This document shows positions 49,778 to 54,277 of a DNA stretch of 64,000 bases, in pieces. Positions within the stretch are counted from its first letter, which is position 1, and every line of letters begins with the position of its first letter. A program made the translations under genes and the position numbers. The DNA is taken from contig CP011806.1 of the NCBI GenBank assembly GCA_001664505.1, positions 3,946,815-4,010,814 on the forward strand. Direction: 5' to 3'. The notes below the pieces were generated by a model. That model was not told the origin of the DNA. It worked only from the letters and a program-made list of their open reading frames with translations, and ran no database searches. This stretch comes from Acidobacteria bacterium Mor1 (GTDB lineage: Bacteria > Acidobacteriota > Polarisedimenticolia > Polarisedimenticolales > Polarisedimenticolaceae).

Positions 49778-50415
49778 CCGCAGGCGGGTTCGTCGCGTTT
49801 CTCGTCCGCTTCGTCGCGGGCTGGGCGGGAGCACTGCTGTTCGGAGGCATGGTCTTCGGCCGGGCAGTCTTCCAGGCCGGCAACCCTGCATTCCGCTGCA
49901 TGATGATCGGCGGGCTGTGTGCGGCCATCTTCGCCGGCACGCGCTCCAGCAACAAGCGTACGGCCCTGGCGGTCATCGCCGGCTACGGTAGCTGGCAGTT
50001 CGTACTGGCCAGAGAAGCGGGGGTTCAACTTCAGCTCACCAGCTCCGCGTCCCAGATCGCTCTGGGGCTCGGAATCTTCCTGGTCGCGCTGATCTACGAT
50101 GCTCTCGCCGTCGAGGGCTGGCGGGTCGGCAAGTTCCTGGTCGCCGGTCCGGCGCTGGCCGGTGTCTACCTGGCGTTGTCGCCGCTGAAGTTCTTCGGCG
50201 GCCTGCCCCACAGCCCGCTTCAGGTCGACATCGCCCTGGCGTTCTTGATCGGCAATGGGGTGGCGTTCGGGATCGAGATGGCGGAGCTGTATCCAGCGCT
50301 CTCGCCCGAGGATCGGGCGGAACTCGAAGAGGGCGAGCCGGCGGAGCCGTCAGAGGAACCGGAGGCGCTCGAGGAAGAGGCCTCTCCTCAGGCCGGCCGG
50401 GAAGTTTCCTCCTGA
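49774..50415 (+). CDS. Hypothetical membrane protein, 213 aa
   Basis: This protein has about five to six hydrophobic segments (residues 5-170) and a Glu/Pro-rich acidic cytosolic tail of about 40 residues. No family was recognised. Its GTG start overlaps the ATPase stop (GTGA at 49774-49777), so the two are translationally coupled and probably work together, with the acidic tail a possible docking site for the ATPase. The 3' end overlaps the convergent sulfatase gene by 28 bp. Confidence 0.75.
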   Translation: MTAGGFVAFLVRFVAGWAGALLFGGMVFGRAVFQAGNPAFRCMMIGGLCAAIFAGTRSSNKRTALAVIAGYGSWQFVLAREAGVQLQLTSSASQIALGLGIFLVALIYDALAVEGWRVGKFLVAGPALAGVYLALSPLKFFGGLPHSPLQVDIALAFLIGNGVAFGIEMAELYPALSPEDRAELEEGEPAEPSEEPEALEEEASPQAGREVSS

Positions 50416-51767
50416 AGCAGATCGTGGCGGGCGCGTAGCTCCGTCAGCAGCGTCGCCGCCTCGGGGCTTTGCGCCAGGTCCCGGGTTTCCCGCGGATCCG
50501 CCTCCAGATCGAACAACGATTCGCCGGCCTGTTCGCCGTGCCAACGGATGTACTTGTAGCGGGTGCCCCGCACCGCGGTGCTGGCCGGGATGTAGCTTGC
50601 CTTCGGCTGGTAGTGATGCTCGTAGAACCAGTCGTCGCGCAGCATGGCCGCGGGATCGGTCAGCGCCTGGCGCAGGCTGCGTCCCTGCATGGCACGAGGG
50701 GCGTCGATCTCCGCCCAATCGAGTAGCGTCGGCGCCAGGTCGACGTTGAGCGCCATCTGCCGCCGCCGCTGGCGCCCGGCCAGCCGCGGGTCGTGGACGA
50801 TCAGCGGAACCCGGATCGACGGCTCGAAGGGCAGCCACTTGCCGGCCATGCCGTGCTCACCGAGAAAGAAGCCGTTGTCGCTGGTGAAGATCACGATGGT
50901 GCGGGCGCTCTCTCCGGCATTGACGATCGCCTCACGGATTCGTCCGACGGCACGGTCCAGGCCGGCGACCAACCGTAGGTAGTTGAGCCGGGTGGTGCGC
51001 AACCGCTGGTCGTCGCCGAAGCGTTCCAGGTAGCGCGTCCGCCCTTCATGCTCGCCGGCCAGCGCAGGGTGGAGCGCAGCGTAGTGTTCTGCCGTGTCGG
51101 TGGGTACTCGCTCGATGGCCGCGTCGTCGTAGAGTGACGCCAGTCCGTGGTCGGGCAGGAACGCGTTGCGCCCCTGGGCGTGGGGCGCCTTGAAGCTGAC
51201 GGTCAGAAAGAACGGCCTTCCTCTGGGCGCGCCGCGAATGAAACGTGTGGCGCTCTCGGCCAGCCGCGCGGTCAGGTGCCGCTCATCGTCGGGGCGGTAG
51301 TAATCCCCCTGGCCGCCGAAACACTCGCAGACGTGGTACGGCGTGGATGGCGGCAGCTTCCAGCCGATGCCGTACTTGCCGAGAAAGCCGGTGTGGTAGC
51401 CGGACTCGCGCAGAAGGAACGGTGCCGAGAGTTTCTCCTGCGCGGCGCTGAGGCCGGTGCCGAAGTCGGCGATGCCGTGGCGCCCCGCCCATTGACCGAG
51501 CACCAGGCTCGCCCGTGAAATCGCGCAGATCGAGGTGGTGACGAATGCGTCGGGGAAGAGGATGCCGTCACCGGCCAGGTCGTCGATCGCCGGCGTGCGG
51601 CTCACCGGATGTCCGGCGAAGGAGAACACGTCGTGGCGTAGATCGTCGGCAAGCAACAACACGACGTTGGGCCGCGTGTCGGTCGCGCCCCTGCAGCCGG
51701 TCAGGATCGACGCTCCGGCCAGTCCGGCGACTTGAAGGAAGCGGCGGCGGTTCAGGTCCGAGTTCAT
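50388..51767 (-). CDS. Sulfatase, Tat-exported
   Basis: This 459-aa enzyme belongs to the alkaline-phosphatase-like sulfatases. A twin-Arg signal with lipobox-like end (RRRFLQVAGLAGASILTGC) precedes the catalytic domain: metal site LLLADDLRHDVF, formylglycine motif ICAISRAS with Cys81, and the later SDNGFFLGEHG. The usual motif is C-x-P-x-R; here Ile replaces Pro, which occurs in some sulfatases but makes conversion by a formylglycine-generating enzyme uncertain. It would hydrolyse sulfate esters, perhaps on marine polysaccharides. No sulfatase-maturation enzyme is in the window. It is divergent from the CRTAC1-like gene (113-bp gap). Confidence 0.92.
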   Translation of the reverse strand: MNSDLNRRRFLQVAGLAGASILTGCRGATDTRPNVVLLLADDLRHDVFSFAGHPVSRTPAIDDLAGDGILFPDAFVTTSICAISRASLVLGQWAGRHGIADFGTGLSAAQEKLSAPFLLRESGYHTGFLGKYGIGWKLPPSTPYHVCECFGGQGDYYRPDDERHLTARLAESATRFIRGAPRGRPFFLTVSFKAPHAQGRNAFLPDHGLASLYDDAAIERVPTDTAEHYAALHPALAGEHEGRTRYLERFGDDQRLRTTRLNYLRLVAGLDRAVGRIREAIVNAGESARTIVIFTSDNGFFLGEHGMAGKWLPFEPSIRVPLIVHDPRLAGRQRRRQMALNVDLAPTLLDWAEIDAPRAMQGRSLRQALTDPAAMLRDDWFYEHHYQPKASYIPASTAVRGTRYKYIRWHGEQAGESLFDLEADPRETRDLAQSPEAATLLTELRARHDLLQEETSRPA

Positions 51768-51880: not shown

Positions 51881-54277
51881 ATGAGGAGGGGGATACGAGC
51901 CGGGTGCTTTTGGGGCGCGCTCCTGGTGGGCGTCGTGGTGTGGTGCGCCGACAAGCCCGCAGCGCCATCGACCTTCGAACTGGACAAGGCCAAGCAGGAA
52001 GCGATCTGGTTGGCCGAGCATGTCACCTTCAAAATCGAGTTTCATCTGGGCAAGGTCTGGAAGCAGACCGCAAAGTCCGGAGACGCGGCCGCCTTTCGCA
52101 AGCTGTTCACGGAGGACGCGGTGCTCGGTGCCGCTGCGCCGCAATCACCTAACGCCCGTAGCAGCACCGGCATCCTCGAACATCGGCGCAACGGCAACGG
52201 TCCCACGAAAGAAACGGCGATCGATCACGTGATCGCAGGCTTCGCGCCCTTCGGCAAGATCTCCGAGTTCAAGACCCATCGGCTCAAGGTGCTTCAGGTT
52301 CAACGGATCGACGAGGCGAACTGGACGGCGACCCTGCTCCACGACGCCATCGGCGCGGACGCCGACGGCAAACCGCTGGAGATCCAGCAGATCTACTCGG
52401 CGGGGCTGCGTTTCGAGAGCGCCGATTCCATCGACGCCAAGAGCCGGGTCTTCACCCGGTTGGTGTTCGAGGAGGAGACGCTGCGGCATGCCGGCGGCTG
52501 GTTGTTCGAGGAGGCAACCGAGGCGGCCGGGCTCGACTGGTTGCCGCTTCCCGACAACTGGAAGCTGCCGGCCCGGCAGCGCCGGGAGTTCCGCCATCAG
52601 ATCGCCGTCGAGGACTTCGACCGGGACGGTTGGCTCGATCTGGCTCTGGCGACCATCGAAGGGCACCGCATGCTGCTGCGCGGCCGACCCGGCGGCAAGT
52701 TCGAACTGGCCGGCACGGCCATGGGCATTCCCTCCCGCCCCGGCTTGAAGAAGGTGCTGCGCTACTCCTTCGTCGCCTGGATCGACTACGACGACGACGG
52801 CTATCCCGATCTGATGATGGGGGAGAAGCTCTACCGCAACGAGGGGGGCAAGAAGTTCGTCGACGTCACCGCCCGGGCCGGGATCAAGATCGACCGGGTA
52901 CCCATGGGCGCCACCGTCGGTGACTACGACCGGGACGGCGACCTGGATCTGTACATCTCGTACCTCAAGCGTTTCCGCAAGGGAGTTTCGGAGTTCCGTC
53001 CCTGGGTCGGGGATGTGGATTCGGGCGGCGAGAACGCTCTGTGGCGCAACAACGGTGACGGAAGCTTCACCGAGGTGACCGTCGAGAGCGGCTCCTCGGC
53101 CTGGAAGCGCCAGACCTTTGCCTCGATCTACTTCTACTACGACGACGACCTACATCCCGACCTCTACGTGGCCAACGACTTCGGTGAGAACGTGCTGCTG
53201 CGCAACAAGGGGGACGGTACCTTCGAGGACATCACCAAGGGGCTCGGCATCGGCGACTACTCGACCAGCATGGGGGTCAGCGCCGGCGACCTGGACAACG
53301 ACGGCGAGAACGAACTCTACGTGGCCAACATGTTCTCCAAGATGGGCCGGCGGATCATCGGCCACGTCGGCGCCGAGGACTATCCCGAGGGGGTGTTCGA
53401 GCAGATCCAGGGCTCCTGCGCGGGCAACCGGCTCTACCGCAAGAGCGGCGGCAGCTTTCAGGAGCAGAGCGTGCCCGCCGGCGTCAACGAGGTCGGCTGG
53501 GCCTACGCGCCGGCGATGACCGACCTCAACGGTGACGGGTTGCTCGACCTCTACGCCACCACCGGTTTCATGAGCTACGACCCCGCCGAGCCCGACGGCT
53601 GAACCTGCCTCTGGAGGGCTGTCGTGACACAGCCCCTGGACCGCAACGCCCGGCATGAGCAGCTCGGCCCCCTCGACGAGGAGTCGGGAGAGTTTTGGGT
53701 CGAGAATCCCTTCGACATGGCCCAGCAGGGAATGAACCTGAGTTCCTACGAGCGGAACCGGGTTTACCTCAATCTCGACGGTCACGACTTCGTCGAGGCC
53801 TCCTTCGCTTCCCGGGCGGATCTCGACGCCGATTCCCGGGCGGTGATCGCCGCGGACTTCGACCGGGACGGGGCGCCGGATCTGCTGGTTAGCTCGGTCG
53901 GCGGTGGCCCGGTGCGCCTGTTCCGCAACACGGCGCCCCGTCAGGGACGCTTCGTCCGCATCGAGCTGGAAGGGACCGAGAGCAACCGCCGGGGCATCGG
54001 CGCCCGGCTGGTTCTCGAGGCGGGCGGCCGCACCATCCGCCGCGACCTCTTCCCGGTTAACCCGGGTATGGGCCAGGGGCCGGCGGAGCTCTCCGTCGGA
54101 GTCGGCGCCGTCGAGAAGATCGACAGGCTCACGGTGACCTGGCCCACCGGCAAGACCCAGCAGTTCACCGACCTGCCCGTGGACGCGAAGTTGGTGATCG
54201 AGGAGGGAGGCGAGCAGGTCCGCGTCTTCGGGATCAGCCCTTCCGCGACGGTAGCCAGCGCGACGCCGGATAGGTGA
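51881..54277 (+). CDS. CRTAC1-like FG-GAP/ASPIC-UnbV protein with one in-frame TGA (possible selenoprotein or split gene)
   Basis: Read through the TGA at 53600-53602, this gives 798 residues: an N-terminal hydrophobic signal segment, an unrecognised helical domain (about 35-215), VCBS/FG-GAP repeats (e.g. EDFDRDGWLDLALATIE, GDYDRDGDLDLYISYL, GDLDNDGENELYVANMF), the interrupted position at residue 574, another repeat (ADFDRDGAPDLLVSSV) and an ASPIC/UnbV C-terminus (GIGARLVLEAGG, DRLTVTWPTGK). Both halves are in the same frame, with sensible protein sequence on each side of the stop (TGFMSYDPAEPDG, then TCLWRAVVTQPLDRN). Alternatively the second part may be a separate protein from GTG 53624, which has GGAGGG at 53613. 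A simple nonsense mutation is also possible. The start at ATG 51881 has only a weak Shine-Dalgarno. It is convergent with the sterol desaturase-family gene, overlapping by 44 bp. Confidence 0.75.
53600..53635 (+). other. In-frame TGA with SECIS-like hairpin (candidate recoding site)
   Basis: TGA occupies 53600-53602. GGGCTGT (53616-53622) pairs perfectly with ACAGCCC (53629-53635) around the 6-nt loop CGTGAC, giving a loop 20 nt after the TGA with G at the second loop position. This agrees with the general bacterial SECIS layout: a hairpin just downstream of UGA, inside the coding sequence, with a G near the start of the apical loop. A Shine-Dalgarno-like GGAGGG (53613-53618) and GTG 53624 in the same stretch would instead allow re-initiation. 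The sequence alone does not decide between them. Confidence 0.5.

Follow-up and report, generated by a model that had tools for sequence, protein, structure and literature searches.

A probable selenocysteine codon in a CRTAC1-like beta-propeller gene of Acidobacteria bacterium Mor1 and in its relatives

Whether an in-frame UGA ends one protein, marks a damaged gene, or is a codon for selenocysteine (Sec) is the question raised by a plus-strand gene of the window, i.e., of the whole stretch of 64,000 nucleotides analysed from the contig CP011806.1 of Acidobacteria bacterium Mor1. The frame 51881–54274 contains exactly one internal stop, the TGA at 53600–53602 (residue 574), and is terminated by the TGA 54275; the read-through product has 798 residues with Sec, and its FG-GAP repeats followed by UnbV_ASPIC represent the CRTAC1-like domain order. 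The domain search of the translation placed the repeats mostly 5' of the TGA 53600 and UnbV_ASPIC 3' of it, and, together with the listing of stops, it confirmed the claim of the first-pass annotation that a VCBS/ASPIC-UnbV frame stays open through one TGA, with the UnbV_ASPIC domain beyond. When every stop of the window was examined for signs of coding on either side, five were flagged, and among these it is the TGA 53600 that homology backs. The TGA codons 30883 (plus strand) and 40113 (minus strand) are each flanked on either side by an open frame with high GC at third positions, and they may be artefacts of antisense frames or gene boundaries. A divergent sulfatase gene (50388–51767) is located upstream of the CRTAC1-like gene, and the 3' end of a minus-strand gene of the fatty-acid-hydroxylase family converges with it, with an overlap of 44 nt (54234–54277).

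The domain matches, the AlphaFold2 model (pLDDT 77.6, pTM 0.83) and the best match among solved folds, murine CRTAC1 (9etn; E 6.5e-28, TM 0.71 on target), point to an exported CRTAC1-like selenoprotein encoded in this single frame. From the N-terminus on, the model shows a hydrophobic helix, then a small alpha+beta domain, the propeller and lastly the sandwich of UnbV/ASPIC. The segment 51881–51946 was read by eye from the translation as a probable signal peptide with a possible lipobox ending VVWC, and its hydrophobic stretch (residues 5–22) is a helix in the model. The following domain of about 170 residues (36–205; 51986–52495) appears NTF2/ketosteroid-isomerase-like, with Foldseek matches to 3hx8 and 5z3r at E of about 1e-3. 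The FG-GAP/VCBS beta-propeller (residues about 240–690; 52598–53950) is supported by PF13517 (5.3e-44) and PF01839 (9e-20) besides the model, and the UnbV_ASPIC domain (residues 705–771; 53993–54193) by PF07593 (1.1e-12). The candidate Sec, residue 574, opens the helix 573–583, standing in its first turn.

The host genome carries a second family member (L002/L077, G000:C1:5841198–5842910, minus strand), with 34% identity to the protein of the window, and its sole TGA falls in the same column, the sites MKDT-U-SLFWRHVV and EPDG-U-TCLWRAVV being aligned with each other; in the window protein a Cys stands two residues past the Sec, in the U-T-C order previously proposed. At the class level (41 genomes), one TGA was found in most of the best matches that cover the site, and at the phylum level the TGA-form protein is present in at least 47 of the 396 Acidobacteriota genomes sampled. 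The scan of named genomes gave 60 more loci, assigned by annotation to Acidobacteria, Planctomycetota, Gemmatimonadota and Latescibacterota; it used the 7-row alignment A2, whose patterns favour the KDT-U-S subgroup, and the distribution beyond Acidobacteriota is therefore a lower bound. Pooled over these four phyla, 89 distinct sites have TGA at the column. The stop at this column is always TGA, and the homologues that lack it are one uninterrupted frame with A, G, N, S, D, E or Q in its place, or, once, with Cys. The latter is the planctomycetal site L192, whose sister on a quick tree, L201, has TGA; on this tree, the Sec label requires 5 changes as against 18.5 for shuffled labels.

The comparison of homologues that had been proposed as a check on the Sec reading supplied the TGA in one column and almost no Cys. 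A variable, non-Cys residue, which had been named as grounds for giving up the Sec reading, does occur in the homologues without TGA; however, these belong largely to lineages without the Sec machinery, and for this reason the variable residue reads as the probable loss of Sec and not as evidence against it. In related bacteria without the machinery, which they have lost, the residue is Ala, Gly, Ser, Asn or Gln. The TPR-type locus L074 (5289, genome G033) carries the Ser codon TCG in the Sec column and has kept much of the SECIS-like sequence (CGTCAGGTCGTGTCGC); it looks like a recent Sec-to-Ser change, and the genome still has tRNA-Sec. A divergent subgroup, L138–L143 (G054, G253, G260, G337, G385), is marked by DL-U-[LA][PA][FY]xxxAVA, has no FWRxVV motif, and contains a hairpin with a GGUC loop about 20 nt past the UGA. 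The genes of the family occur as adjacent pairs on one contig in L063 (G037; 3120 and 6013) and L139 (G385; 2976 and 5417), which suggests tandem or operon arrangements of different or similar subtypes. In L201 (Planctomycetota KW1-S15_114), the frame closes 20 codons past the Sec UGA, probably because of an assembly frameshift, or else this is a decayed copy.

The putative SECIS element of the window gene occupies 53606–53645. Its upper stem of 7 bp (GGGCUGU-CGUGAC-ACAGCCC; 53616–53622 paired with 53629–53635) encloses a loop of 6 nt (53623–53628), CGUGAC, with G at position 2, which begins 20 nt past the UGA, and the lower stem adds 5 bp (53610–53614/53636–53640). The perfect stem, loop and second-position G that were noticed at the first reading proved exact in folding and coordinates. 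The published bSECIS model demands a loop of 3–9 nt, an upper stem of 4–16 bp, G in the first two loop positions, a distance of 16–37 nt from the UGA and an MFE not above −7.5 (PMC13188914, Fig. 2 legend). The hairpin, for which scoring against such a model had been suggested, lies within all of these limits, its MFE being −19.9 kcal/mol. By itself the hairpin is modestly unusual, with a z of −2.26 for a 51-nt segment and 4 of 200 shuffles folding equally well. The Rfam scan of the site returned no known RNA family and no SECIS match, and the element was therefore assessed by geometry, shuffles and covariation.

For the family, a contiguous stem of at least 5 bp around a fitting loop, 15–21 nt past the UGA, was sought in 72 non-redundant TGA sites, and it was present in 66 of them, as against a mean of 11 and a maximum of 22 in 200 synonymous-codon shuffles with the protein fixed. 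The mean MFE was −13.9 at the TGA sites and −11.2 in such shuffles. The homologues without TGA showed no enrichment, with the stem in 3 of 21 sites and 2.9 expected. Pairing holds in 94.7% of the stem-column cells, compared with 20–70% when the partner is slid, and one stem pair, formed by third and first codon positions, is kept in all 63 of 63 members, be it as CG, TA, GT, GC or AT. The most frequent loops among the TGA sites are GGUCG, GUG, GUC and AGUUG; the divergent U-LPxxxxAVA subgroup has the loop GGUC, and the automatic stem test missed 3 of its 7 sites. Over the first 51 nt, the window sequence and L062, the nearest relative (overall identity 54%), differ at 6 positions, of which two make up a compensatory change from U-A to C-G in the stem, at the cost of a silent Ala change and of Gln to Arg. 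The hairpin in part overlaps conserved protein sequence, an overlap for which the synonymous shuffling controls. The conservation of the stem is, by this comparison, beyond what the protein sequence explains, with the apparent selection confined to the TGA members, and chance, as judged from the sequences, falls far short of accounting for a TGA column so conserved and a hairpin found throughout the family.

The host genome (5.985 Mb, one contig, 99.98% complete) encodes the whole decoding apparatus, i.e., all of the genes selA, selB, selC and selD for which a search had been advised: a single tRNA-Sec that scores 72.7 bits, which exceeds the Rfam cut-off, and is identified also by ARAGORN as tRNA-SeC with the anticodon TCA, selB (330 bits), selA (516 bits) and selD (358 bits). 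The gene selD (L030, G000:C1:2910488–2911429) has its own in-frame TGA in the context CAG-U-ASK-MGP, i.e., at a UxxK site, which is the known Sec motif of SelD (PMC13188914, Table 1). Of the 47 compared genomes with the TGA form, 42 yielded a tRNA-Sec, as against 195 of the 349 remaining ones (Fisher p 4.8e-6, the genomes being treated as independent, which they are not fully); of 18 genomes with another residue in their nearest homologue, 7 have it (p 8e-5, independence being assumed as well). Three of the five TGA-form genomes in which no tRNA-Sec was found have selB, and in the fragmented MAGs G027 and G277, both with the TGA form, neither tRNA-Sec nor selB was found. The gene selB was absent in all 8 tested genomes that combine another residue in the nearest homologue with no tRNA-Sec found. 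Such a distribution indicates that Sec is often lost along with its machinery, as expected for real Sec.

Because the frame is continuous, the TGA column conserved, the stem selected family-wide and the decoding genes present, Sec decoding is supported, and Sec is almost certainly inserted at the UGA 53600. Very probably, the window gene encodes one exported protein in which this UGA is read as Sec by means of tRNA-Sec, SelB and the downstream hairpin. The alternative of two proteins, with a stop at the UGA 53600 and re-initiation at the GTG 53624–53626 (plus strand), would yield an exported part of 573 residues and a second protein of 217 residues. This GTG, preceded by GGAGGG, does exist, as had been pointed out when this alternative was first raised, and a GTG-type Val codon is common at the position in the family; however, it is the conserved codon of Val 582 inside the apical part of the SECIS stem-loop, where the pairing explains it, since the last G of the codon is paired in all 63 of the 63 members, while as a start codon it is not strictly kept, CTG or TTG being used in 7 of 63 homologues. 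Re-initiation would also leave the second protein without a signal peptide and the propeller cut mid-way, and it does not agree with the stop being always TGA, in one column, and with the single frame of the homologues without TGA. We consider it highly improbable.

That the window genome has suffered a recent nonsense mutation or a sequencing error, the other alternative proposed at the outset, is recommended by nothing besides the presence of the stop and is refuted by the conservation of the column, which bears TGA at 89 distinct sites spread over many genomes and assemblies, two of them in the window genome itself; its probability is negligible. The UGA might also be read through otherwise, by suppression, by misreading with tRNA-Trp or in a reassigned code, with insertion of an ordinary residue, and the ordinary small or polar residues, not Cys, of the homologues without TGA would agree with that. 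But UGA terminates the same gene (54275) and other genes, the geometry of the hairpin is that of a bacterial SECIS, with selection on it only in the TGA members, and the TGA form co-occurs with tRNA-Sec and selB, which makes read-through of this kind very improbable too.

With regard to function, the reading by Sec insertion is joined to a proposed mechanism, in which tRNA-Sec and SelB would read the UGA 53600 as directed by the adjacent hairpin, with the UGA 54275 terminating, and the protein would be exported to the cell envelope. There, the selenol, which stands where a helix begins in the final portion of the beta-propeller, may perform redox chemistry. The N-terminus of a helix is a typical place of redox Sec or Cys, and in the model of the thioredoxin-fused relative L158 (pLDDT 86.1) the Sec (residue 554) is likewise the first helix position. 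The loop at the Sec site is of low confidence in the models. Most relatives have a C-terminal thioredoxin domain of the ResA/TlpA type, which suggests an envelope redox protein: the C-terminus of L158 matches AhpC-TSA (2e-18), the ResA subfamily (1.4e-21) and, by Foldseek, ResA/TlpA, and the members of its subgroup show WATWCxPC motifs in this domain. Other subgroups have either TPR repeats preceded by an AhpC-TSA match or a weak match to AhpC-TSA. The window type (the window protein and L062) has none of these, but does have a Cys two residues past the Sec. The Sec is located in the propeller, outside any thioredoxin-fold active site, and it is Cys that the fused thioredoxin domain has. In most relatives, the selenol would be reduced by the thioredoxin domain of its own chain, and in the window protein, which has no such domain, U-T-C may form a selenenylsulfide that a partner would reduce in trans.

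A thiol or peroxide redox role in the envelope is, in our judgment, evenly poised between being right and being wrong, and any particular substrate would be more doubtful still. The Cys at one site (L192) and A, G, N, S, D, E or Q elsewhere mean that a redox role of the residue is not forced and call for caution. The Sec may instead be structural or bind a metal, e.g., as a ligand in a calcium-rich propeller, the thioredoxin domain serving otherwise; this would fit the tolerance of Ala, Gly, Asn, Asp or Glu at the site while the rest of the protein, including the AhpC-TSA domain, is retained. However, the position at a helix N-terminus and the thioredoxin-fold domain in most families with Sec speak against such a role, which seems rather unlikely.

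Like CRTAC1/ASPIC and the bacterial CRTAC1-like proteins, the window protein has an FG-GAP beta-propeller followed by UnbV_ASPIC; unlike in CRTAC1/ASPIC, for which no Sec is described, its Sec-bearing segment (profile positions 465–622) is unaligned to mouse CRTAC1. With the SelB-decoded selenoproteins, such as FdhF, it shares the UGA with an immediate hairpin, the GGU/GU loop, and tRNA-Sec, SelA, SelB and SelD, but the family is uncatalogued and Sec/Cys exchange in it is nearly absent. Most relatives resemble the ResA/TlpA-like thioredoxin selenoproteins (WAxxUGC, NF041054; UGC-containing TlpA) in their C-terminus, whereas their thioredoxin domain has Cys and the Sec is in the propeller, about 260 residues further upstream. 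Among the 119 families and subfamilies of prokaryotic selenoproteins catalogued in 2026, there is no entry for FG-GAP, VCBS, CRTAC1 or UnbV (PMC13188914, Table 1). No NCBIfam family (June 2026) was found for the window protein, and its relatives have no match at the curated cut-off, the matches lying in the thioredoxin and TPR parts. The full-text literature, with subscription papers and preprints outside coverage, gave nothing linking UnbV, CRTAC1, FG-GAP or VCBS to selenoproteins. The CRTAC1-like Sec proteins are thus apparently a previously undescribed selenoprotein family with dozens of relatives in four phyla.

Many Cys homologues are a near-rule for known selenoproteins (PMC12013277), and the near absence of Cys forms together with the free replacement of Sec by small or polar residues are, on the alignments at hand, the most unusual feature of the family. 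We consider it somewhat probable that these proteins represent a widespread, unrecognised class of envelope selenoproteins built on the CRTAC1-type beta-propeller, in which Sec gives way to residues other than Cys upon the loss of the machinery. If so, the class would have been overlooked because surveys depend on Sec/Cys pairs, and Sec chemistry would be found where Cys is no useful substitute. Since Cys almost never replaces Sec, the methods based on such pairs would overlook the family, which suggests that more families of this kind remain. It is probable that the Sec codon divides many public gene models into two. The Sec machinery of many environmental bacteria would gain a function, and the family would offer a defined test of the role of selenium outside the thioredoxin-fold enzymes.
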